Source: Medicago truncatula (taxonomy: Eukaryota > Streptophyta > Magnoliopsida > Fabales > Fabaceae). From it: a stretch of DNA of 64,000 nucleotides. The position numbers and the translations under genes were made by a program. How positions within the stretch are numbered: position 1 is the stretch's first letter; each line of letters starts with the position of its first letter. Location: contig NC_053045.1 in NCBI RefSeq assembly GCF_003473485.1, positions 41,334,494 to 41,398,493 of the forward strand, read 5' to 3'. Below are positions 6,431-56,860 of this stretch, piece after piece. The notes below the pieces were generated by a model. The model saw nothing but the letters and a program-made list of their open reading frames with translations, ran no database searches and had not been told where the DNA came from.

Positions 6431-6434
6431 ATGT

Positions 6435-6444
6435 TATATAATAA
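6435..6444 (+). promoter_or_regulatory. TATA box of the first UGT copy
   Basis: TATATAATAA lies about 40 bases before the ATG at 6485. An in-frame ATG at 6431 overlaps this box and would add 18 residues absent from the family, so 6485 is the better start. Confidence 0.55.
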
Positions 6445-6484
6445 ACCGAACTTCATCTCCCTTCCCGCACTTTCCCTTCAAAAG

Positions 6485-7920
6485 ATGGGTAGTGAATATC
6501 ACACTTCACACATTTTTTTCTTTCCTTTTCTTGCTCGAGGTCATGTGATACCAATGGTTGACATGGCCAAATTATTTGCTGCAAAAGGTGTCAAAGCCAC
6601 AATTATTACTACACCCCTCAATAAACCTTGTATCTCCAAATCTATAGAAAAATCCAAACTTAGTGGCCACAATATTCATATCCAAACCATAAAGTTTCCT
6701 AGCTCAGAGGCTGGTTTACCAGATGGGTGTGAAAATATGGACTCAATCCCTTCACCACAATTCTTTCCTAAGTTTTGTATGGCCACAAAGTTGTTACAAG
6801 AGCCACTTGAGCAACTACTACTTGAGCAACATCCAGATTGTGTTGTTTCTGACACGTTTTTCGCATGGACAACTGATTCAGCTGCTAAATTTGGAATTCC
6901 TAGACTTGTGTTTCATGGTACTTGTTTCTTCTCCTTGTGTGCTGTAGAGTGTATGAGACTCTGAACCTTTCAAGAATGTTTCTTTTGATTCAGAACCCTT
7001 TGTTATTTCTAATCTTCCCGGTGAGATTAAAATGACAAGGCTGCAGATGCCGCCTTTTGAGATATCAAAGGAATTTGAAGGAATGTCTAGGTTACTACAG
7101 GAAGCAAAGAAAGCAGAACTGAAGAGTTTTGGAGTGGTTGTAAACAGCTTCTATGAACTTGAAAATGTTTATGCAGAGTATTACAGGAAAGTACTTGGAA
7201 GAAAAGCTTGGCATATTGGTCCTTTATCTCTTTGCAATAAGGATATAGAGGAAAAAGCAAATAGAGGAAGAGAAGATTCTATTCATCACCATGAGTGCCT
7301 AAAATGGCTTGACATGAAGAAACCTAATTCAGTTGTTTATATATGCTTTGGAAGTATGGCGAATTTCTTAAACTCTCAGCTTAAAGAAATTGCTACGGGA
7401 CTTGAAGCATCCGGGCAATTTTTTATTTGGGTGGTGAGGAGAAGCAAAGAAGATGGAGAAGATTGGCTACCAGAAGGATTTGAGAAAAGAATGGAAGGAA
7501 AGGGACTAATTATAAGAGGTTGGTCGCCGCAAACGTTGATTCTTGAACACGAAGCAATTGGAGCATTTGTGACTCATTGTGGATGGAATTCAGTTTTAGA
7601 AGGTGTGGTTGCTGGGGTACCTATCGTTACTTGGCCTGTTGCTGCTGAACAATTTTACAATGAGAAGTTGGTGAATGAGGTACTTAAAATTGGTGTACCT
7701 GTTGGAGTTAAAAAATGGGTTGGATTGGAGGGAGATAAGTGTTCAATGGGATGCACTGGAAAAAGCTGTGAAGAGGATTATGGAAGATGAAGAAGTAGAG
7801 GAAATGAGGAAAAGAGTGAAATTGTTGTCAAAGTTAGCTAAGAGGTCTGTGGAAGAAGAAGGATCATCTTACTCAGATTTGAGTGCTTTAATAGAGGAGT
7901 TGGGTTTGCTTAGGCATTGA
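6485..7920 (+). pseudogene. UGT73B-type glycosyltransferase, two frameshifts
   Basis: Family 1 plant UDP-glycosyltransferase of the UGT73 group, which moves glucose from UDP-glucose to small hydroxylated acceptors in the cytosol. The N-terminal part (6485-6961) has the catalytic His in ARGHVIP (residue 20) and the partner Asp in VVSDTFF, then stops at CMRL. Homology resumes in the next frame at EPFKNVSF, consistent with loss of two bases near 6960. The PSPG sugar-donor box ([15 protein letters not shown] ... AAEQ) is intact in that second frame. A further base is gained near 7738, after LEGD; the ending [10 protein letters not shown] ... LGLLRH continues in the third frame to 7920. No intron is apparent. 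The two shifts do not cancel, so no full-length protein can be made. Decay looks recent because identity is otherwise good. Assembly error is the alternative. Confidence 0.85.
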
Positions 7921-11976: not shown

Positions 11977-14104
<2,128 letters not shown>

Positions 14105-15051: not shown

Positions 15052-16515
15052 TTATTCTTTTGAGATGTGTTGGTGGTGGCAAAGTGAACCCAGCTCCTCA
15101 ATCAAGGCATTCAATTGTGAGTAAGATGATCCACCTTCCTCCACAGCCTTCTTTGCCATTTTTGCAAGCACTTTTGCTTTGTTCCTCATTTCCTTTGCTT
15201 CTTCTCCTTCCATAACCTTCTTCACAGCCTTCTCCACTGCATCCCAATGAACTTTATCACTCACCTTTCCATCCCATGTTTTAGCTCCAACAGGTACACC
15301 AATTTTAAGTACATCAGTTACCAACTTCTCATTATAAAATTGCTCAGGAGCTATAGGCCAAGTAATCATAGGTACTCCAGCAGCTACACTTTCCAAAGTT
15401 AAGTTCCATCCACAATGAGTCACAATTGCTCCAATAGCTTTATGTTGAAGAATCAAAAGTTGAGGAGACCAACCTCTTATAATTAGTCCCTTTCCTTTCA
15501 TTCTTTTCTCAAATTCTAGAAGACCTTTAATTTCTCTATCTTCTGCATTTTTCTTCACCACCCAAACAAAATCTTTCCCCGATGCTTCGAGTCCCATAGC
15601 AATTTCTTTAAGCTGAGAGTTAAGGAAGTGATTTTTACTTCCAAAGCACACATAAACAATTGAGTTGATATCTTTTGTGTCAAGCCACTTTAGACACTCA
15701 TGTTTATTGATAGAGGGTTCTTTTCTGCAGTATGATGTATCCATATCTCTGTTGTAAACTGAGAATGGACCTATATGCCATTCTTTTTTTCCAAGAACCT
15801 CTCTATAATAATCAGCATAAACACCATCAAGCTCATAGAAGCTATTGACAATAACGCCATAACTCCTCGCCTCTGATTCCCTCATTTCTGCATATAATTT
15901 TGCAATGTTTTGGGTTATTGCGTCATTTTTTGTGAATATATTTGGCAGCTGCAACCTTGTCATTTTGATATTCCCAGGAAGATTAGGAATAAAGAATTCT
16001 TCTGTTTCAGAAGAAACATTTTTAAAAGGCTCATATTGTTCCAGGCATTGTGAAACACACAATGAAAAGAAACCAGTGGCATGGAATACAATCCTAGGAA
16101 TACCAAATTTTGTAGCAGAATCAGTTGCCCATGGAAAGAACATATCAGCAACAATGCAATGTGGTTTTTGTTGAAGCAATAGTTCTTCAAAGGGTTGTTG
16201 AAGCAATTTAGTAGCAGTAAAGAATGTAGGAAGCAGGGAAATTGTAGGGATTGCATCAACATTTTCACACCCTTCAGGTAAACCACCCTCTACACAAGGG
16301 AACTTGATGGTTTGGATATCGATGTTATTAAAATGGATTTTGAATTGTTCTATGGATCTTGAAAAGAAAGGTTTGTTGAGGGGTGTGGTAACTATGGTAG
16401 CCTTAACACCTTTTGAAGCAAATATTTTGGCCATATCAATGGTGGGTATCATATAGTTATGACTCATGAATGGAAAAAAAATTATGTGTAATGGATTGCA
16501 TTGTGGACTATCCAT
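15052..16515 (-). CDS. UGT73B-type glycosyltransferase with altered active site
   Basis: Single-exon UGT of 487 residues, full length for UGT73. The start is the ATG at 16515; codons upstream of it in frame contain no ATG. Expected motifs are IVADMFFPW with the catalytic-dyad Asp at 124, and a 44-residue PSPG box at 349-392 (GWSPQLLILQHKAIG ... APEQ). Two key positions differ. The family GHxIP motif reads HNYMIP, so the catalytic His that deprotonates the acceptor is Tyr21 (codon TAT). The HCGWNS motif reads HCGWNL, so the Ser that contacts the UDP phosphates is Leu372 (TTA). Each is one C-to-T change from the common codon. The frame is otherwise open, so the protein may be made but is probably inactive or changed in chemistry. 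It shares a block of upstream sequence with the next UGT. Confidence 0.92.
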   Translation of the reverse strand: MDSPQCNPLHIIFFPFMSHNYMIPTIDMAKIFASKGVKATIVTTPLNKPFFSRSIEQFKIHFNNIDIQTIKFPCVEGGLPEGCENVDAIPTISLLPTFFTATKLLQQPFEELLLQQKPHCIVADMFFPWATDSATKFGIPRIVFHATGFFSLCVSQCLEQYEPFKNVSSETEEFFIPNLPGNIKMTRLQLPNIFTKNDAITQNIAKLYAEMRESEARSYGVIVNSFYELDGVYADYYREVLGKKEWHIGPFSVYNRDMDTSYCRKEPSINKHECLKWLDTKDINSIVYVCFGSKNHFLNSQLKEIAMGLEASGKDFVWVVKKNAEDREIKGLLEFEKRMKGKGLIIRGWSPQLLILQHKAIGAIVTHCGWNLTLESVAAGVPMITWPIAPEQFYNEKLVTDVLKIGVPVGAKTWDGKVSDKVHWDAVEKAVKKVMEGEEAKEMRNKAKVLAKMAKKAVEEGGSSYSQLNALIEELGSLCHHQHISKE

Positions 16516-16613: not shown

Positions 16614-16625
16614 TATTTATAACTA
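16614..16625 (-). promoter_or_regulatory. TATA box of the second UGT
   Basis: On the minus strand TAGTTATAAATA lies about 100 bases upstream of the ATG at 16515, a sensible place for a core promoter. Confidence 0.5.
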
Positions 16626-20895: not shown

Positions 20896-22332
20896 TTAGT
20901 ATGCACGTGACTTCAAATCCTCAATTAAATTGCTAAAATCATTGTAAGAAGATCCACCAACCTCCACAGCTCTTCTAGCCATTTTCCCAAACTCCTTTGC
21001 TCTGCTTCTCATTTCCTCTGCTTCATCCCCAACCATGATCCTTCTCACTGCCTTCTCTATAACATCTTTCTTCACAGGCTCACCACCTCCCATTCCAATC
21101 CAAGTTTGCACCCCAACACCAACACCAATCTTAACTATATCACTCAAAAACTTTGCATTGTAAAATTGTTCACCATACATTGGCCATGTCACCATTGGTA
21201 ACCCTGCACTCACTCCTTCCAATGTTGAATTCCATCCACAATGTGTCACAAACCCTCCAACTGATTCATGATCCAATATCATCACTTGTGGTGCCCAACC
21301 TCTTATGATCAATCCTTTACCACTACCTTCAATTCTTTCCTCAAAACCTTCTGGTAGCCATTCCAAATTTTCACCTTCACTTTTAGCACTTTTCCTCACA
21401 ACCCAAATGAATGGAACTTCAGAAGCTTCAAGTCCCATTGCAATTTCCTTAAGCTGAGCGTCGCTGAAAACCGTCATGCTACCAAAACAAACATAAATAA
21501 CTGAATTTGGTTCTTTTGATTGTAGCCATTTCAAACACTCGTGTTCGTCGATCGATGCTTCTCTTCCTCTACATGCTTTTTCTTCAGTGTCTCTATTGCA
21601 TAAAGAAACTGGACCTAAATGCCAAGCTTTTCTTCCAAGCTCGTTTCGATAATGATCAGCATAAACCGGTTCAAGTTCATAGAAAGTGTTTGCAATCACA
21701 CCAAAGCTTTTCACTTCTGATTCATTAGACTCTTCCAATAGTTTTGTGAAGACTTTATCATGCTGAGGAAGTTGCGGTAACTGCATCTTCGTCAGTGTGA
21801 TTTCTCCAGGAAGATTAGGAACAACAAAAGGTTCTGTGTAAGATGAGACTTTATCTTGAGGTTTGTACTGTCTTGTACAAGCCAAAACACATAAAGGGAA
21901 GAAACCTAAACCATGAAACACAATCCTAGGAATGTTGAATTTTGCTGCAGAATCAGTTGACCAAGGGAAAAACATGTCAGCAACTAAACAATCTGGTTTT
22001 TCTTGTTCCAAAACATGTTCAAGTGGTTCCCTTAGAAGAAGGGTTGATTTCATGAACTTGATGAACTTGTCTGGTGCTAATGCTGATTCAGAATTTTCGC
22101 AACCTTCCGGTAAACCGGTTTCTTCTGGTGAAGGGAATTTGATAGTTTTGATGTTGATTTTAGCTTTTCCAATGGTTCTTGAAATGAGAGGTACATTGAG
22201 ATGAGTTGTGACAATGGTGACTTTGAGTCCTCTTGAAGAGAAGACTCTTGCAAGGTCTACACAAGGTATGATGTGGCCATTGGCTAGAAATGGGAAGAAG
22301 ATTATGTGAAGTTCTTGATTTTCGTTAGTCAT
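20896..22332 (-). CDS. UGT73B-type UDP-glucosyltransferase
   Basis: Single-exon plant UGT of 478 residues with all expected active-site features: catalytic His20 in ANGHIIP, Asp119 in LVADMFFPW, and a canonical PSPG box at 346-389 (GWAPQVMILDHESVG, HCGWNST, YGEQ) that binds UDP-glucose. The acceptor is not predictable from sequence; UGT73B enzymes act on flavonols, simple phenolics and other stress metabolites. I start at the ATG at 22332. An in-frame ATG 31 codons upstream lies on the 5' side of the TATA box and is therefore unlikely. It is the only member of the array besides the abscisate-type copy with no visible defect. Confidence 0.95.
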   Translation of the reverse strand: MTNENQELHIIFFPFLANGHIIPCVDLARVFSSRGLKVTIVTTHLNVPLISRTIGKAKINIKTIKFPSPEETGLPEGCENSESALAPDKFIKFMKSTLLLREPLEHVLEQEKPDCLVADMFFPWSTDSAAKFNIPRIVFHGLGFFPLCVLACTRQYKPQDKVSSYTEPFVVPNLPGEITLTKMQLPQLPQHDKVFTKLLEESNESEVKSFGVIANTFYELEPVYADHYRNELGRKAWHLGPVSLCNRDTEEKACRGREASIDEHECLKWLQSKEPNSVIYVCFGSMTVFSDAQLKEIAMGLEASEVPFIWVVRKSAKSEGENLEWLPEGFEERIEGSGKGLIIRGWAPQVMILDHESVGGFVTHCGWNSTLEGVSAGLPMVTWPMYGEQFYNAKFLSDIVKIGVGVGVQTWIGMGGGEPVKKDVIEKAVRRIMVGDEAEEMRSRAKEFGKMARRAVEVGGSSYNDFSNLIEDLKSRAY

Positions 22333-22401
22333 GGTGAATTTGTGAGTTCTGGATTTTTGCAATGAGAGGGAAAAGATGAAGACTATGCTAAAGTTTTGTT
22401 G

Positions 22402-22412
22402 CTTATATAAAG
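22402..22412 (-). promoter_or_regulatory. TATA box of the third UGT
   Basis: CTTTATATAAG on the minus strand lies about 70 bases before the ATG at 22332 and 3' of the alternative upstream ATG, which helps decide the start. Confidence 0.6.
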
Positions 22413-24540
22413 ATGAATTAATCATTGAAAAATAAAGTTTTGCAATCGCGTTTTACACGGGCTATTAATATATTATTTGTTCTTATAAAGTTTTTCATTT
22501 ATATTATTTTTTGAATATTGATTTATATGTATTTATTTATCTAACACTTGGCTATGGTACAACATGCATGGATGAGATCTGTTCACCACGCAGTCCACGA
22601 GCTCATTTTAAAAATAGCAGAGTGCTACTGTTATTTTTTTTGTTTTTTGACTAAAGCAGAGTGCTAATGTTTTATTTTTTTGGAAGAAACAGAATGCTAA
22701 TGTTGTTTATAGTATTTTAACTTTTATGTATTAAAACTTTATTGCAAAACAAAGAAGAAGGAGGAGTTGAGTCTAGCTAAAAGCATACTCTTGTGTAATT
22801 TGTCAAATTGTTATGATTCAAATTCATTATTTTTTCAAAAACTTACTTGCTATGTCCCTAAATAAATTCCTAATTAAAATCATTGAGTGTGTTGGAATAT
22901 GAAAAAGCAAAATTTACTGCGTACACATATAAATGATATTTTATGTACATTTATATATAAAATAGACATTGTTTTTGAACAAGCTAAAATGAAATGTATT
23001 AATAACAAAGGTAAATCATCCCGCACAAGGTGTGTAAAACCAATTACAATGTCACTGATGCCATAAAAGTGAAGATCAAAAAACAACAATAATAATTACA
23101 AGACATGTTAACTACGTTATCAAGTTTTTTTAAGAGTGAAAAAAATGCTTATATATAAGGATGGTGCAAGCATTGAATAACATGCTTTGGAAAAGAGACA
23201 TGTGAGTTCAATTGCACTACTTTGAATGTGTTTGTTTAAGTTTACCAAATTTTTTTTTGGTTATGAATAAGGAATAACATTCTTTGGAATATAAAAATGT
23301 GAATTTTGTTGCTATTTAAAAAAAAATATGTTTGGTTCTTTCAACAAAAGAAAAATATGTTTTGTTAACATTATAATATTCTCATGAACCTTAAAAAATT
23401 ACCTCTAACTATAAATTGTTTTACAATATCAATTAAGCATTAATGTTACTTTTCTTATATTATACTTTTAACTCTTACTATCTTCTTTCTATTATTTTTT
23501 TTTAATTTATATTTCTCATGACATAAATGAAGGATAGTTTTATAAAATAATTCATAATTTCTATTTTTTACACAGAATTAATTACATTGCTTACTTTGTA
23601 CCAAAACTAATCAATATGGCTTATAATTTAAGAGGGAGAGAGTATAAGTTAGTTTTGAAAAGTGGATTTTCATTAAATTTACTCCCACAGCACAAGATGT
23701 GCATAAATGGAGGGAAATAACATCAGTCCACATGCTTTACACGGTACAAATGTAACCAAACAAAACAACATATACCCAAGGCTACATTCATTGTAAAGTA
23801 CATCTGTGTAACTAATAAGAACCATCTAATGCATAATTATGCAGAAGATGGTTTTCAATTCTGCACCAACACTTGCATCGTTCCACAAATATAATATTCA
23901 AGTTAACCAGTGTACTCAAAGGCCATTCCATAACATCCAATCATCACAAAATAACCATAAACCTTGACACCCTTATTTCTTGCATTGGATAAATACTTGA
24001 CTCCCTTTAGCTGAAGTCAATGTTCCAAAGTTCTACATAATGTCTTCTTTCTGCTTTCCTAAAACCAGTCTTCCCATTTTTTGGACACAACTTGCTCCTA
24101 CAACGCCTTACTTGCACCAACATCCTTTGCCCATAATTGAGTATGCACTGCTACTGCTCAACAAAATAATTAGCATCAACACCTCTTCTGCAATAGTACT
24201 ACTCAATCATCACAAAACTTCTTTTTCTCGATACTATCCATTCCTTGAACTTGTAATGTCGTTTACAATCTAGCCTACAATCACCAAATCGCTCATCCCA
24301 TCAACCGCCCCTTAAACACTATATCGGACAGAGACACCACTGTTGAATTTGAAGACAACCTTCTACCTTTGATTTTAGTCATAGAGTTGAGTTAAGTCCA
24401 ACCAGACACTTTATTGGCTTTTGTATTAGATTAAGCGAAGTTGTGAATTTATGACTGAGTTAACAAGTGGAGATTATCTTTTGAGAAATGGAGATGTTCA
24501 GTACTAAAGTTTTAGTATATAAATGCACATATTTAAAAGT
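22413..24540. other. Upstream spacer of the third UGT
   Basis: Contains the promoter block shared with the second UGT (22912-23150). That block is interrupted at about 22978-23090 by a segment resembling a truncated LINE 3' end (on the minus strand ending AGCTTGTTCAAAAAC). The rest is AT-rich and non-coding; the 77-codon frame at 24040 has no recognisable domain. Confidence 0.45.
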
Positions 24541-25930: not shown

Positions 25931-27346
25931 TTAACAATCTAAACTTGTCTTGCATTGAATCAATGCATGAATATCATCATAAGAACTTCCACCTTCTTCA
26001 ACAGCTCTTTTTGCATTCTCAAAAATACTTTTAACCCGCCTTCTCATTTCCTCTGTATCTTCACTCTCCGCCATCAACTTCTTCACTGCCAACTCCACCT
26101 TCTCTCTTCCAACCAACTCTTTCCTCTCTTCATCCCAAGACCCCCACTCTCTACTACCAACTTGAACACCAATCCTCAACACATCAGTTATCAACTTCTC
26201 ATTGATAAATTGCTCAGCTGAAAGTGGCCAAGTCGCCATAGGTACTCCAGCACACACACCTTCTAAAGTTGAGTTCCATCCACAATGAGTCATAAACCCT
26301 CCAACAGCCTCATGCTCCAAAATCAAAAGCTGAGGAGCCCAACCTCTAAAAATCAAACCTTTATCCATTTCCTTCATTCGCCTTTCAAATTTATCAAGAA
26401 CCCAATCTTCTTCATTTTTAGATGAGTTGAGAATCTTCCCAACCACCCAAATGAATGATTGATCAGAAGCTTCTAAGCCATAAGCAATTTCCTTGAGCTG
26501 TTTCATTGGTACGCGAGCTACGCTCCCAAAACTTATGTAAAGAACTGAATTGGGTTTCTTAGAATTCAACCAATTCAAACAACTTTGTTCATCTATAGTG
26601 GGTTGTTTCCCTCTTTCTTTCTTATCTTCTACGCTTCTGTTGCAAAGAGAAACTGGTCCTACAAGCCATGCTTTCTTTCCCAGTTTGTTTCTTACGTAAT
26701 CAGCATAAGCTGGTTCCAAATCATAAAAACTATTGATAAGAGTACCAAGGCTATTTTCCTCTAATTGCTTTATCCTATCAGAAAACTGAGATGGGTTTCT
26801 CATGAAAATTGGAGTCTGAGACCGTGTCATCTCGATTATGTCAGGAAGGCCAGGAACAATGAAAGGTTCTGAGTCTGAACTCAGATTCTCTAACACAACA
26901 TGTTTTCTCGTATTTTCAATGACACAGCGCGGGAAACACCCGTTACCATTGAAGACAATTCTTGGAATTTTGAGTTCATCGATGATGTCGCCAGCCCAAC
27001 GATGAAACATGTCAACAACTATACCGTCCGGTCTGTGTTGGACTAGGAACTGTTTCAGAGGTTCAAGGAGAATCGAGGTATCGATCATGGGACCAGCAGA
27101 CATGTCGGTGTCAGTTACTTCAGTGTTTTCAGGGGTGGTGAGAATCTGAATGGTGATGGGATGATTGGATTTTTGGTCTCTGGTGATTGAATTTTGGAAT
27201 TGAAGAGCGTTAGATGGTGTAGTTATGATGGTTGATGTGGCTCCATGTTTTGCAAACACTCTTGCTGTGTCTACCATTGGAATCTGATGTCCTCCACCTA
27301 CGAAGGGGAAGAAGTATATTTTAACTGCATCAGTTTCATGGTTCAT
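25931..27346 (-). CDS. AOG: Abscisate beta-glucosyltransferase-like UGT (UGT73B)
   Basis: Single-exon UGT of 471 residues. The N-terminal half (FFPFVGGGHQIPMVDTARVF, then TPSNALQFQNSI, VVDMFHRWAGD and NGNGCFPRCV) matches the adzuki-bean abscisate glucosyltransferase as I recall it, far more closely than it matches the other UGTs here. Such enzymes conjugate abscisic acid to its glucose ester and so lower active hormone. Catalytic His20, Asp112 and the PSPG box 336-379 (GWAPQLLILEHEAVG, HCGWNST, SAEQ) are all present. I start at the ATG at 27346; the frame runs further upstream only through non-ATG codons. The C-terminus (ALIQCKTSLDC) departs from the usual ALIQELK ending. Substrate is inferred from similarity and needs assay. 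Confidence 0.93.
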   Translation of the reverse strand: MNHETDAVKIYFFPFVGGGHQIPMVDTARVFAKHGATSTIITTPSNALQFQNSITRDQKSNHPITIQILTTPENTEVTDTDMSAGPMIDTSILLEPLKQFLVQHRPDGIVVDMFHRWAGDIIDELKIPRIVFNGNGCFPRCVIENTRKHVVLENLSSDSEPFIVPGLPDIIEMTRSQTPIFMRNPSQFSDRIKQLEENSLGTLINSFYDLEPAYADYVRNKLGKKAWLVGPVSLCNRSVEDKKERGKQPTIDEQSCLNWLNSKKPNSVLYISFGSVARVPMKQLKEIAYGLEASDQSFIWVVGKILNSSKNEEDWVLDKFERRMKEMDKGLIFRGWAPQLLILEHEAVGGFMTHCGWNSTLEGVCAGVPMATWPLSAEQFINEKLITDVLRIGVQVGSREWGSWDEERKELVGREKVELAVKKLMAESEDTEEMRRRVKSIFENAKRAVEEGGSSYDDIHALIQCKTSLDC

Positions 27347-42016: not shown

Positions 42017-45000
42017 ATGGCCCAGGTTCAGGTTCAGCCTCAGAATGCGATGACCGGTCCTAACGGTGGTGCGGCGGCTGCAGCGGCGGCCGGTGGCGGT
42101 GGAAATTTTGTGACGACGTCGCTTTACGTCGGAGATCTTGATATGAATGTGACGGATTCTCAGCTGTATGATTTGTTCAATCAATTGGGTCAGGTTGTGA
42201 GTGTTAGGGTTTGCAGGGATTTGACTACTAGGAGGTCACTTGGTTATGGTTATGTTAACTATAGCAATCCACAAGATGGTTAGTTAATTTAATTTAATTG
42301 TTTACTTTTTGTTATTCATTGTGTGATTTGTACTGTGAATTGGATTGGTTTTTTGATTTAAGAAAAGGGTTTGTAGAAAGGTTTAATCTTTATTGATGAA
42401 TTATTAGTTTATGAAGCAGGGTTATGCTGGTTTCATGTTTAATTTGTTGTTGAATTCATGATTGTATTACTGTTAATTCTCTGGTGTGAGGTTTATACAC
42501 CCTTTATTTAATGACACTAATTATATACCTTCAATTTCTAAAACAAAACAGGGCTTTTACTTATTGTCAAGCAAATTAGTTGGGGATTATGGTTGATATA
42601 TATCGCTCATGCATGTTGATGATGTCTGTTGCAGTGCAATAATTGCCAATGGAAATTGTTTAACCAATTTTAAATAGTGGCTATAGCGGCGCTATAGCAT
42701 AGCGGAATTTGAACTAACAACTATTGTTTTGCAATACGCTATTTAATACGACACTGTTGCGTAACGGAATTTGAACTAATGCCCCTTGTTCCGTAATACA
42801 CAAATGAGTACAACACTGCTGCATAGCGGAATTTTAACAAACCACTATTTTCTACAATCTGCGACTGACAACACTTTTAAAATGATGAATGCACTCAAAC
42901 TCGCATGCGTGGTATTGGGGGAAATGAACTTTGCATGCGACGTCTAAAGCTAATTTGTGTCTGGGAGATTGTTGACTTTTTGTCGAATGGGTTGGATACA
43001 TATTTTTTGCCTTCTTTCCACTAATTTAACATATTGCCGAACATATATTTTTTGCCTTCTTTCCACTAATTAACAGTGTGAGAAGTAAATAGTTAATGTA
43101 ATACGGTGGTAGAAATCATGTGGTAGCTCTTGTTAAAACGCTAGGTTAACTGAATATTTTAGATGGAGACTGCAAATAAGAATATTTTAAAGCTAGATTC
43201 ATATAGAGCTTTTCTTGCAAATTTAGCATACCAGTCGAAGGCCTGCATATACAGTGTGTGTGGCTTACATTAAGCAGGCCTAATTTGCTTGCAGGCAACG
43301 TAATTCATCGAATTAAGAAATTTGACTGAAATAAGAATCCATCCCTTTGCTCGCTGGCAAAGGGATGGATTCCATACTTATATTTGGTTTTTGATATAAA
43401 AATGCTATATTTTGTTTCTTTCTATCGCTGTAACTTTGTGATTCATAATTGCAATTAATGATCTTTTAACTTAAATACTCTAGTATTACCTCTATTCTCA
43501 AGCACATGTCGATCTGCTTTTAGATTTTTTCTCAAACTATTGTATTACAAACATGTCGTATAATGTATGAGAATCGGTCAATTGATGACTGTATTTATTA
43601 ACAGTAAGACAAGTTTATCTCTAATACAACACATGAAACATTAAAATAATTGAATGTTGTGTACTTCGTTATAGTCAATCTTATATTTTTTTGAGTTGTG
43701 GGCAAGGAATATTGTACAACAGAATGTTTTCATGATCTATCCTCATGTCATGAAAAGTTTATGTGATGCGATTTTCACCTACCTAATTTGTAAACCGATT
43801 GACTTTACCTTCATTTACAGATCTTCACATTTTTATCCTCGAGTAATATAATCTTTTATTTTGTTGCTGTTGTGGTAATCATTTGTTTTGTATCTCGCTG
43901 TTCATAATATATTTGCTGTGTGGATACAGCTGCGAGAGCATTGGATGTTCTGAACTTCACTCCTCTCAACAACAGGCCCATTCGCATTATGTATTCACAT
44001 CGTGATCCTAGTATCCGCAAAAGTGGTCAAGGAAATATATTTATTAAGGTATTGATATCTTTGTTCTTCCACATTGTCTTGTAATGGAAAGAATTCTGCT
44101 AAGCTTCTGGACTGCATGTACTGGTTGGACCTGTTCTAACCATTTTCAATCTTCCTAATTTAATGATTATTGCAGAATTTGGACAAGGCGATTGACCATA
44201 AGGCGTTGCATGATACCTTTTCTTCATTTGGGAATATCCTTTCTTGCAAGGTAGCTGTGGATGGATCTGGCCAATCAAAAGGCTACGGCTTTGTTCAATT
44301 TGATACTGAGGAGGCTGCTCAAAAAGCTATTGAAAAGCTTAATGGTATGCTTTTGAATGATAAGCAAGTTTATGTGGGACCCTTCCTTCGCAAGCAAGAG
44401 AGAGAGAGCACAGGTGACAGGGCAAAATTCAACAATGTTTTTGTTAAGAATCTCTCAGAATCAACTACTGACGATGAGTTGAAGAAGACTTTTGGTGAAT
44501 TTGGAACAATTACCAGTGCTGTAGTAATGAGGGATGGGGATGGGAAATCAAAGTGCTTTGGATTTGTGAACTTTGAGAGTACCGATGATGCTGCTAGAGC
44601 TGTTGAGGCTCTTAATGGGAAAAAAATTGATGACAAGGAATGGTATGTTGGAAAAGCTCAAAAAAAATCTGAAAGGGAGCATGAACTGAAGATTAAGTTT
44701 GAGCAGAGCATGAAAGAAGCTGCGGATAAATATCAAGGGGCAAACTTGTATGTCAAAAATTTGGACGATAGCATTGCTGATGAAAAACTTAAGGAGCTGT
44801 TCTCCTCTTATGGCACAATTACCTCTTGCAAGGTATGTATAATTGATATGACTGACATCTCACTAAATATTCGCTAAGTACATAGTCATATGTTGCTTTC
44901 TTTTCACTTGGAAGGTAATGAGAGACCCCAATGGCGTAAGTCGAGGATCTGGGTTTGTTGCATTCTCTACTCCCGAGGAGGCATCTAGAGCTGTAAGTCA

Positions 45001-50903: not shown

Positions 50904-53900
50904 TCAGACCGCCTGTTGATTTATGTGCCTCAATCGAAGTCCAACATCTGCGTCACGATCTTGTTGATTTATATTTGGACCAAGTAAAATAGCATCCTGC
51001 ACTCCTGTAGAAGTTGCAGCTTCATTTGCCTTCTCAACATGTTCTCCGAAGTTATGCAACCTCCGGCCAATCAGATACCGGTCATCACGAATTGAATTGT
51101 GGAGATTTGTAAACCAGACGTGAAATCTCTTGGCACAAAAACACACGAAACTGAAAGAGAGGCATCCCAACCATGCAAATCGATAGACAGCAGAATTGAC
51201 CACTAATGGGTACCCAAGTGCTGGAAACACACCTCTGGCCAAAACATAAGGTACACATAACGCTGTCAATAGTTTCATTATGATTGGAAGTACAATCTCT
51301 CGTAGGACCCAAAGACCTTGCAGCCTGGAGAAACCATCATCTCTCACTCTCTCAAACTTTACTCGCCAACTTTCATCCATTAGAGGCATCATGTGGTCCA
51401 ACATAACCTAATCAATGAACCAAGTCAATACTAGAAGAACATAAATGAATACAGTTGATTGTTATAACAAACCTCGGGGATACAGATAACCCATCTACAA
51501 ATGGCCAGTGACACAAATCCAACAAAAATTACCAATGATGGAGAGAGAGACTGAAAAAGAAACGAGGCATTACACTATCCCTATTATTAGTCAGGTGTGA
51601 AAACATTTTGTCACTTTCTTTTGGTTGATAATTCTTTTGTCAGCTGAATGGAAATTCATCATCTAAATGGGGCTTTCTCCTCTAATAAAACTCATTCATA
51701 TATCCAATTATGTTAACTATGAATCTTTCAGAAATCATCATTCATAATTCATCAACCATTGCCATTATATTCCCCACAAAAATCATAACATCATCAGTGA
51801 AAAAAAATCCCACTAAAATAAAGACACGGCAAAATAAATTTTATATTCTAACAAACAAGTCATATGTCTCATCAAATGAGAATACCATAAGGATAATATA
51901 GTGCCTATTTCACGCTTCATTACATGGATCAATTGAATAAAAATGAATAAATTCAAGAAACGTTCTTCACTATAGAGGAATATGTTTTAATCGCTACCAA
52001 TGCAGCAGGATACATTTACTAGTTACTTGAGTAGAGCAGAAGGCCATGTAATCTAAATTAAAATGGAGATTGCCAAATATGATAACATTCATTTATTTAA
52101 TGTTATATTTTGAAGCATTTAAACAAGTTGGAGGTTTCATACAAGAATTGAAGCCAATCAACAAAAGATTAACAGAGAAAATAATAATAATGAAGGAAAC
52201 AAACTCACCAATCTAGTCCATATCTTGAGAAATATAAGGCCCAATGCCCAGTCTTGATAAAGGAGGAATACTGGACTTTCATCCACTGGAACTCTCATTG
52301 GTACAATGACCAAAAGCTCAAAGAGAAGCCCAATCAGCACTGGGATGACAAATATCTAAAACCGGAAAGTAAAAAAATGTATTGATCACCAAAGAACAAA
52401 TGAAAATTAATGCATTATCAAAAGGTCGGGTTCAGTAAACTGATCAGCAATCAGAATCGTCCTTACCCATATAGACAAAAGGGCAGAACTCTTGACAACA
52501 ATGCTACACCACTTCCAAATTTGGTTCAACAAAACTGAAGTCCTTCGTTTTCTAATTTGCTCGATTGAGTATCTAACTCCAGCAACAGCAGTCCAGATCA
52601 CATAACTTCCAATGATGAAGGCATACAAATCTAACAAAAGAAATAAGATAACAAATCAATTCAGAGTTATGAAGCACACCAACAAAAGAAATCAGTTCAA
52701 TCAATTGCTTACCATTGCACTTAATGCCATGAGTTATAGGTAGACGGGGAATGGAGTTGAAAAGTATCCTTCCCAGTGATATTGGTACAACTACCAGGGC
52801 AGAGTTGAAGACAAGGAGAGTCATCCAAGCAATGACCAGCAGAAGAACAATGCGAAGTGCAAAGGCATAACTGCTGTAGTCATTAAATATATCTAATCAG
52901 ATGATGACAAAGTAATACAAAAACATGCTTATACAGAGAAACTGATGACTTCAGTAGACTTTTCATGCATTTCATTACGGAAACGCAAAAAAACCATGAA
53001 AAACTACCCACATCATGCCCTGTTCCTCCACCCCAAAGACAAAAGTGTACATAACCAAATAGATAGACAAATGCAATATTGGATGATTCATAATCATAGT
53101 TATATGATTTTAATTTGCGAGGAACTCACTCAGAATCAGGTTGTTCGTCGCTGTCGTAATCCTCTCCAGCATCTGCATTAGTGACTCTGTTCAAATCATC
53201 GCCAGCAAATGGAACCATACCCTGATCGTGTACCCCTGCTTGTACTATCTGTAGCCTTTCCTGCCTACCTCGCTCCCCATTTCCATTTTCTTGATTACCA
53301 TTGTCATCAGGTCTAGGCAGTAAGAAATCAGTTAAACCAAGTGCCCAACCAACTGCTGAAAACCAATAGCGAAGAAGGGATTTGATAGTTGTCCTGAGTT
53401 TAAAATGCTCGATAGCAAATGGTATACAGATCTGGAAGAGAAGCATGTTAGCTGGAATTTCGGTGAAGGGATCAGATAGCCTGCACAAAATAAACATATT
53501 CAAGTTTAACAACTGTAACAGGGAGTTCTATGTATTTTGCATCAACTATTAAAATTGCTTAAGGGGCCAGCTTACAATATTTCAAGTGGAAAAATGGAAG
53601 GTGCCATCCGCATTGCAAGTTTAACTGGCAAAAATACCAGCATAACAATCAAACTCCCATAAACCGCAACAGATAACAAAACCCTGCGAGCATGTTTGTG
53701 CACAGGATCATCTATCAGATCACGGAATGGATTATAGTTTGGATCAGCCGGATCCCGAAGGAAGTACAAAACCCCATTCCGCAAAACCTGTCATTAGAAA
53801 GAAATATATCATATGAAACATTGCATAACAAAAGAAGCAAAGCTTTAAGCATTATATCATGTGACAGGAAATTACCCCTCTAAGAAGGCTGACAAATATG

Positions 53901-56860
53901 CTAATTTGTAGCATGTACACGATCCCTACAACCCAATGAGCCAATGAGCTAGCTAAAGGAGAAGCAGAGAAGAACTGAGCTCTGTGAACCATCGTCTTCC
54001 CAAACATCTGTATGGTGCAAACATCGAGCCACCACCCACACATCAGGGGAAATACCCCTAATTCAATAACTAATAGGAAAGCAACCTTCACCATGGTCAT
54101 CAAATGCCTCATTGCTGCTAAAAACTGCCTGAAGAGAGATGGAATTGTCTCTGCTATAGAAGCAATACCATAAAATCTTCCTGCAGTCAAAGGTTCACCC
54201 TTTGTGTAACGAATTAACGCAACAACACCGAAGTAGCAGAAAATTAGAGTCGATAGGAAAATATATCCAACTGCCAGAGTAGTAACATCAGAAATCCTGG
54301 AAGTTCCAATTGACCCTCCTTTCAAGAGATCATCCGAAACAGATGCAGTTATGTTGTTTGACATTTCACTCAATTCACTTGCATTCACTTTTAGCATTTC
54401 TGCAATCTGACCAATTGATCCACTTTCTTGAGTAGCAGTTGATAAATTTTGAACAGCTGTTAATGCATTTTTTAATGTAATATTTGCTAGGGAAAGAGAA
54501 GCGTCTGTAGGTGGGACTACCACCGATAAAACCGCATCACTACCAGTAGAAAAGAACCATGATAGATAATGAAGAATTATGCGACCCAATGAGAAGGGCA
54601 GAAAGATTACAACCCCAAGGAAAATCATATTGCTTGCCAGCACCTGCATAATGAACAAATCATTCAGCTTGCAAATAATAAATGCTGTAGATAGAAAATT
54701 AATATCATTAGAGGAAGAAAAACGTGAAAAAATCTAATCAGAAGTCACAATGTACAAAACAAAGATTGTTGTCGTATCAAAGCAATAACCAATTATCATT
54801 GGAAAATGATCACCCAGAGAATACTGCTTCAGTAGATTTGAAAATTTACACTATAAACAAGCAATTACATCGATAGAATGACAACTAGGGGGGAAAATCA
54901 GAAAAGTGAACTAATCTTTTCATAATGATGAAAACTCGACGACAATAAATTTTCAGCAAACAGAACATTGAGGTTTCTGCAGCAAGAAGCCCCTATTGAA
55001 GTTGGTTGCTAAAAGCTCCATCAACATGCTCATTTAAACAGGGCAAAGATGTTTCTTGAGTACATTAAGGTGTAAATAACAACAAAGAAAATCATATGTT
55101 TAAAAGTGCAAAAATGTTTCTTGAGTTCGGAAGACATTAAGGTGTAAATAACATAAAAAAAAAATCATGTGTTTAAAAGGATAAACTACAAAAACGGTGG
55201 CAAGTCAGAAACACCAGGATTATCTGAACATAGGAAGTAGTATGCAACTATGAGTTAGGTTTTTCCTAGGTCAGATTACCCATATTCTATATAGAGAAGC
55301 AGTATCAAGACAAACTACATTGCGACTTTGTGATATATGAGCAGCAAACATTGAAAAAAAAATTATAGACATACCGTAAATGCATTTTCAACCAAATGAA
55401 AAACCGGACCCTGCATGCCAACAAGTTCATCAAAGGGTACATCTTCTGCCCCATCAGCGTCATCCAGACCATCAAACATCTGTTCAACATGCGCCTCGAG
55501 ACGTGCTGCTTGCATCTCCCATCGTGCAGCAACATTTTCAGCATTCCTTCTAATTACTTGACCTGCCCCCGCAACTCCTTGTGCTGCAACAGCATCTTCT
55601 CCATTTGCATCACCATTAACATTACGATTAGCTTGTCCAGCAGGCCTTCTGGCAACCCGGGCACCATTTCTGTCCACTTCATCTTCTCTCTCAGCATCCT
55701 GTCCCCCAATTTCTCGTAAATGCCTAAAGTAATCTCTCAAAGAAGTAGCCCCAAGAAAAATGAAGACAATGCTTGCAGAAAGCAGGAAACCATGGAGGCA
55801 ATCAGTCAGAATAACCGCCGTTGATAAATGATTCAAGAATAACCTCTGGGCTTCACCGAAACTCCTCACAAAAGCTAACCTCCATATCCAGAATGTTATG
55901 AAAGGTATAATTAAGAGCCACACAGATAACACAAAACTCAGACGCACAAAGAATTGCAAGACATGGCAAGCTTTCATCGCCATTCCAACCACAAACTCTT
56001 GAAAAGGCAACCTAGCAGGAGCATTCTCTGCATAAACAGGTGAAAAGGAAAACGGATGCTTGCAAACCTGCAACACATGTTAAGCCTGTCAACAAAATAA
56101 CCCCAACCAAGGAAAATCTATCACAATTTAGAGAGGTAATTTTGTTGACAAATTTGGTGTGCATGCAAAACAAAACTACTAAATAACTTCTAAAGAAAAC
56201 ATTTTGCAAGTCTTGTTAATAAACATGTCTTCAATTTTCTTCATTTATTTCAATGTGAATTAAAAATTGCTAACTTTCATATACATAAATTTGCAATACA
56301 ATAGCATAACCTTTCTAAATTCTTAGGACCAAATTATTATTTTTTGAAAAAAAGTTATGAAATTTATGATTCAATTTCATCACAACACAGCTGATCATAG
56401 CTCAATTTACGAAAAATAAAATAATAAATTCAACAAAAATTCAATTAAAAAATGCAAAATTATGCTGAATAGCCTATGATCACTATGAACGTGAACAATT
56501 ACGAAGAGAAAGATGATTAACCTCGCATTGACGAGCGTTGCTATGATTAAGCCACTGAAGGAGACAATCTTGATGAACAAATTTAATACTCCCGCTACAC
56601 GCGCACGGATACCGTAATGGATTATCAGCATCACCAGGGTTCCGGCAAATACGGCAAACATCCTCTTCATCTTCATCGTCGTCATCGTATTTTGCAGATG
56701 GCGGTGCTGTTGATGCGGTGGCGACTGCTTCCGCATCGATCTCCTTTCCTTTGGAACCGCGTGGAGACGAAGAGGAAGAGGAAGGGGAAGAGGAGGAAGG
56801 TGTGGTGGCGGCGATTGGAGTTCCGTCGAGAGAAGGCGGTGGTTCGTTAGCGATCTCCAT
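50904..56860 (-). CDS. SUD1: ER membrane E3 ubiquitin ligase SUD1/CER9 (DOA10/MARCH6 type), 10 exons
   Basis: Exons (minus): 56860-56522, 56067-55375, 54643-53876, 53787-53576, 53480-53130, 52873-52713, 52630-52467, 52355-52209, 51550-51473, 51407-50904. Sites are GT-AG and phases agree; 1138 residues against about 1108 for Arabidopsis SUD1. The N-terminus has a Ser/Pro-rich stretch, an acidic run (59-67), then a C4HC3 RING-CH finger (C69, C72, C86, C88, H96, C99, C112, C115) that recruits E2 enzymes. The rest is a multi-pass membrane protein with the conserved central region (RFYGIASIAETIPSLFRQF) and the ending LIGRRLHNFGE. DOA10 ligases mark ER proteins for degradation; SUD1/CER9 controls HMG-CoA reductase activity and cuticle lipids in Arabidopsis. 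Intron 5 ends in a tandem NAGNAG acceptor (52870 or 52873), which adds or omits one Ser. Confidence 0.96.

Follow-up and report, generated by a model that had tools for sequence, protein, structure and literature searches.

Gene A is a single-exon UGT73-type glycosyltransferase gene in the 64,000-nucleotide stretch of Medicago truncatula analysed here (the window). Judging from its sequence and those of its relatives, it is probably not a gene that died recently but one with an unusual mode of action, and it appears to have stayed whole as a sister copy degenerated. Here it is tentatively proposed, with slightly less than an even chance of being right, that it is a maintained UGT whose sugar transfer to ionised or nucleophilic acceptors needs no catalytic base. 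This proposal is favoured with modest confidence over slow decay of the gene and over a non-catalytic role.

Gene A and its altered residues

The open frame of gene A comprises 487 codons and a stop on the minus strand (Table 1), with no stop or frameshift in the 487 codons. Its translation matches the PF00201 profile with 54.9 bits (cut-off 19.5), which assigns it to the GT1 or plant UGT superfamily; the NCBIfam profiles gave just weak matches to bacterial families, far under the cut-off. Among solved chains, the best six matched at E ~1e-101 or lower and the next at 4.5e-52; the closest is 6lzx (55% identity), and two of the six carry UGT73 names, UGT73C1 (9x43) and SgUGT73AM30 (26fx). For 7c2x, the numbering of His29 and Arg32 agrees with that of the glucuronosyltransferase UGT73P12 in the available part of its description (PMC6851746). 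Similarly, the genome search with gene A found six loci at E ~1e-105 or lower, the remainder being at 1e-48 or weaker. By these comparisons, UGT73 is the UGT family nearest to the predicted protein. It resembles the UGT73 family in its whole-length match, single exon, PSPG box and dyad Asp, and differs from it in having Tyr instead of His, Asn instead of Gly and Leu instead of Ser.

Table 1. Positions of gene A, its diagnostic codons and the related genes in the window
Feature	Position	Strand	Basis or remark
Gene D, related UGT pseudogene, comparison sequence	6431..7920	plus	frame broken by two frameshifts; codons for His and Ser in place
Gene A, single-exon UGT73-type glycosyltransferase	15052..16515	minus	487 aa without internal stop; PF00201 profile match; best solved relative 6lzx
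PSPG box of gene A, residues 349-392	15340..15471	minus	W349, Q352, H367, G369, W370, N371, E375, E391, Q392 retained
Codon 372, TTA (Leu), Ser of HCGWNS	15400..15402	minus	translation, F alignment; also in pseudogene F
Codon 124, GAT, dyad Asp, retained	16144..16146	minus	translation, residue check
Codon 21, TAT (Tyr), catalytic His position	16453..16455	minus	translation, alignment, genome loci
Codon 20, AAC (Asn), usually Gly (Ser in some)	16456..16458	minus	alignment, genome loci
Putative TATA-like element TATAAATA of gene A	16614..16621	minus	~100 bp upstream of ATG; presumed promoter role
Gene B, intact canonical relative, comparison sequence	20896..22425	minus	frame, alignment
Gene C, intact canonical relative, comparison sequence	25931..27346	minus	frame, alignment

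The PSPG box contains the W, Q, HCGWN, E and (E/D)Q of the family and lacks the Ser after HCGWN, a family-variable position; all donor-site residues checked are retained except 372. The sequence-only reading had described an open frame of 487 codons in which Tyr21 replaces the catalytic His and Leu372 the Ser of HCGWNS, with the dyad Asp and the PSPG Gln remaining, and the frame with its stop, the two codons and the retained residues (Asp124 and Glu391-Gln392) agree with it. It had also taken both changes as single C-to-T steps. The catalytic His is encoded by CAT or CAC in the relatives B, C, D and E, and position 372 by TCA in B, C and D and by TCG in E; the single steps hold if the ancestral codons were CAT and TCA. 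The Gly-to-Asn change at residue 20 is an addition to that description: AAC in gene A against GGC in E amounts to two G-to-A steps, which together with codon 21 makes three substitutions within two adjacent codons. A mistake in assembly or base calling that affected codons 20-21 or 372 is barely credible, since the His site would need three errors across those two codons and Leu372 is independently present in pseudogene F.

CpG-driven loss was considered and rejected because, with ancestral CAT and TCA, the C-to-T changes in codons 21 and 372 lie outside CpG (E's TCG would be inside). The CpG o/e of gene A (0.12) is the lowest among the window's four UGTs, and its share of C-to-T-type changes is higher than that of D (p=0.26) and of B (p=0.017), significantly so against B alone; both features would be mildly consistent with a silenced copy. 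His19 was discarded as a substitute base, because 6lzx has His there too, beside a normal catalytic His, and it is no new feature of gene A.

In the regions flanking the window, no further UGT matching gene A was found in the 50 kb on the upstream side or the 10 kb on the downstream side. Inside it, gene D has its frameshifts near 6958-6969 and 7737-7752 and an omega of ~0.2 despite them, so this pseudogene is probably young. The 509-aa frame of gene B (20896-22425) probably starts at the second Met (MTNENQ), by alignment. Additionally, three other frames, named by eye from their translations, resemble a DEAH-box helicase (11977-13818), a poly(A)-binding protein (44347-44877) and a membrane ubiquitin ligase (50904-55983).

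Rarity and age of the replacements

Out of 385 candidates, the genome search scored 88, and its output comprised a list of 89 matches and 30 loci. A total of 31 distinct other UGT73-like loci were read, including B and C, from 32 rows in which L032 and L057 are one gene; this set excludes pseudogene F, which has no long frame, and 22 full-length matches of 39-44% identity, and one of its members (L047) has one in-frame stop. His is present at position 21 in 31/31 of these loci, as well as in the nine other sequences (9/9) of a separate alignment, and Asp at position 124 in 31/31. Position 20 is Gly in 27 loci and Ser in four, while position 372 is Ser in 27, Thr in three and Ala in one. Neither Tyr21 nor Leu372 occurs in any of the 31. 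Among the six solved chains, position 372 is Thr in 7c2x, together with Ser at 20, and Ala in 9uce. By these sequence counts, Tyr21 is exceptional, and Leu372 is unusual but lies at a site that tolerates change. In the titles and abstract openings among the literature matches listed, no plant UGT naturally bearing Tyr at the catalytic His position is named, which does not prove absence.

Other departures were seen in the same set. Ala at the Ser of HCGWNS is shared by L031 and 9uce, and L040, L041 and L060 combine Thr at this Ser with Ser preceding the catalytic His, like 7c2x. The last PSPG Gln is replaced by Glu (EE) in L039 and by His (EH) in L041, instead of EQ.

The two relatives that bear on the age of the replacements are both on contig C8. 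Sister E (L036) is intact and 75% identical to gene A, with which it shares conserved upstream sequence, the alignment covering TATAAAT and a large part of the 5' leader; unlike gene A, E is canonical, with GHGHTIP and HCGWNS. Pseudogene F (L046, ~19.23 Mb) has about 92-93% DNA identity to gene A over the aligned parts and is damaged by a stop in the aligned codons, a 14-base insertion, deletions, a 95-base internal gap and the loss of both ends; the genome search counts one stop in each of its two pieces. A second UGT remnant (C8:19246635-19247144, four stops, 65% identical) is located ~13 kb from F.

The tree (316 codons) groups A and F with 100% support and places E outside. Codon 372 of F is TTA, as in gene A, and the loss of Ser372 thus predates the A/F split. 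The age of Tyr21 is reached less directly, because F lacks the His region. Polarised changes were restricted to sites at which E matches D or B and F matches A or E; of the 91 A-derived changes in the stretch covered by F, 82 are common to F and nine are gene A's alone. The density of gene A changes at residues 7-38 (10/96 sites) is similar to that over the four counted stretches (122/1269). Together these place the His loss most likely on the A+F stem, and each of the changes at 20 and 21 very likely lies there.

Rates of change in the gene A lineage

In the four-gene analysis, omega is estimated at 0.47 for the gene A lineage and at 0.14 for the rest of the tree (p=8e-5; 60 bootstrap replicates give 0.27-0.93), with 0.63 against 0.12 in trimmed columns and 0.42 against 0.16 with three genes. 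For this lineage, the three-gene data reject an omega of 1 (p=0.018) and the four-gene data are borderline (p=0.053), while the trimmed columns do not reject it (p=0.43). Protein relative-rate comparisons of A and D against eight outgroups gave more unique changes in A with seven of them and equal numbers with the eighth, a weak signal with p<0.05 in 2/8. With six genes, the A+F stem has an omega of 0.56-0.67 against ~0.16, and giving it a separate omega gains 9.1 lnL units; E stands at 0.19 and F at 0.97 (~1). The omega of gene A's own branch, 0.68, comes from a short branch and is uninformative, and in the six-gene likelihood neither the stem (fixed at 1: 2dlnL 1.4) nor the gene A branch is separable from 1. 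Positive selection on the lineage is not claimed, as the branch-site test is unstable: its LRT is 5.0 (p=0.0125) over all columns and 0 without blocks 255-265 and 326-336, with p=0.034 when near-gap columns are dropped and p=0.006 when codons 20, 21 and 372 are dropped as well.

Raised values that are not separable from 1 would also be found if gene A had become non-functional near the time of the duplication and were an unfinished pseudogene, its frame open by luck, which is unlikely overall. Slow decay of this kind agrees with the low CpG of gene A and with the state of its close copies F and D, both pseudogenes. For the donor-binding C-terminal half of gene A, the four-gene omega is 0.72, which is indistinguishable from 1 and is what a loss of selection on donor use would predict; a skew of changes towards this half was discarded, as counts show no excess there. 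However, nonsense changes are 5.4-5.7% of random substitutions in the gene A frame, and 10.7 stops would be expected over a wholly neutral stem (P(0) ~2e-5) and 4.6-4.9 in the A branch at F's neutral distance (P(0) ~0.01), where none was observed in either case; with gene A's own smaller divergence, zero stops are unremarkable (P(0) 0.34). Since the split, gene A has 15 specific changes, under half of F's 38, over 1017 sites (p=0.002), a difference found at codon positions 1 and 2 (9 vs 29, p=0.0017) and not at position 3 (6 vs 9, p=0.6). Of the 72 alignment columns in which the nine other sequences do not vary, gene A keeps 68 and departs at four, the others departing at 0-5; H21Y is the sole radical one of its four departures, and the remaining three are conservative. 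The absence of stops, the 15 against 38 changes and the retention of invariant columns argue against plain neutrality of gene A. Simulations in the four-gene frame, made before E and F were found (160 data sets, 120 with a late neutral phase and 40 without), also speak against slow decay: 5/160 reached the observed likelihood ratio, and 0/160 joined a ratio of this size with no stop.

The sequence-only reading had offered very early decay as one possibility, which is disfavoured here because Leu372 is common to F, and gene A is open and changing more slowly than F. It had also held that broken relatives with neutral dN/dS would make the case one of simple decay; within the genome this describes F, which is broken and neutral, but gene A is intact, and the dN/dS of their stem is raised, though not separable from 1. 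Against the proposal of a maintained enzyme, the dN/dS of the stem and of gene A is not significantly below 1, and the nonsynonymous to synonymous counts of A and F (6:5 vs 21:3) differ with p=0.077 two-sided (0.045 one-sided).

Proposed activity and comparison with known glycosyltransferases

In GT1 enzymes, a His-Asp pair deprotonates the acceptor, and Tyr serves poorly as a base around neutral pH. Gene A has neither the His-Asp dyad of canonical base-catalysed GT1 enzymes (Tyr21, with Asp124 retained) nor the Cys-Asp dyad of UGT76C-like N-glucosyltransferases, having Tyr instead of Cys. In the proposed sequence of events, the lineage would have evolved fast while preserving its frame after the split from the canonical sister E, and during this phase His21 would have become Tyr, Gly20 would have become Asn, and the phosphate contact of Ser372 would have been lost. 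The protein would be made and would still bind UDP-sugar, and an acceptor, presumably already ionised or strongly nucleophilic, would be held beside the donor, with transfer proceeding without base catalysis. Candidate acceptors are carboxylates, with a glucose ester as the product, and N or S nucleophiles, and the transfer rate may be reduced or specialised. That the loss of the base and the phosphate contact was itself selected is possible but on the doubtful side; it would have left a lasting Tyr-Asp, Leu-bearing UGT, either a base-free ester-, N- or S-glycosyltransferase or a nucleotide-sugar or aglycone binder modulating other UGTs.

An ordinary O-glycosyltransferase whose base is replaced at modest cost by Tyr21 together with Asp124, or by some other residue, is very improbable: Asp124 is retained, but Tyr would be a poor substitute. 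Weak O-transfer has been reported for the Cys-Asp enzymes UGT76C2 and UGT76C3 (PMC12246196, available part); however, GT1 enzymes acting on less acidic acceptors absolutely require His, according to the available part of PMC12728629.

The reading of gene A as active draws on published His-less GT1 enzymes that are active and from the replaceable Ser of the PSPG box. In the available parts of these sources, UGT76C enzymes with a natural Cys for His favour N-glycosylation, including cytokinin N-glucosylation for UGT76C2 (PMC12246196); His-to-Ala variants of QsFucT and SvFucT are still partly active in ester formation, and UGT74F2 with its His substituted yields the glucose ester only (PMC12728629); and UGT74S1 Ser357Ala has weakened activity, with some kept (PMC4340967). 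Medicago UGT73F3 glucosylates the triterpene hederagenin at the C-28 position (PMC7084467, available part), which by analogy makes a carboxylate acceptor plausible for gene A. Human UGT1A4 and UGT2B10 were set aside as a precedent; in the available part of the paper, amine substrates are given and the His/Pro residues appear in a reference title only.

It is rather improbable that gene A encodes a non-catalytic binder or regulator that recognises a nucleotide sugar or an aglycone or forms a pair with another UGT. The loss of both the base and the phosphate contact, with the frame and the other fold-defining sequence retained, would fit such a role, but the natural His-less plant UGTs found, those of UGT76C, are enzymes (PMC12246196, available part), and no plant UGT pseudoenzyme is named in the titles and abstract openings among the matches listed. 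The earlier suggestion of a non-catalytic or altered role stands better in its second half: an altered role fits better than early decay, but it need not mean loss of catalysis; published His-less GT1 enzymes retain ester formation or N-glycosylation (PMC12728629, PMC12246196, as far as their available parts go).

If active as proposed, gene A would be a natural test of GT1 catalysis without a base, with a canonical (E) and a neutral (F) control built into one genome. If inactive yet maintained, it would count as a pseudoenzyme among plant UGTs, a kind with no example in the titles and abstract openings of the literature matches listed. Either way, surveys scoring UGT function by the PSPG box alone would misjudge it.

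Among known systems, Arabidopsis UGT76C1-5 are, like gene A, natural plant UGTs in which the dyad His is replaced and the Asp retained, although they have Cys instead of Tyr and belong to another UGT family (PMC12246196, available part). Similarly, QsFucT, SvFucT and UGT74F2 show His-less activity on acceptors that are already ionised, as proposed for gene A; however, their His-less forms come from mutagenesis and the natural forms retain His, unlike gene A (PMC12728629, available part).
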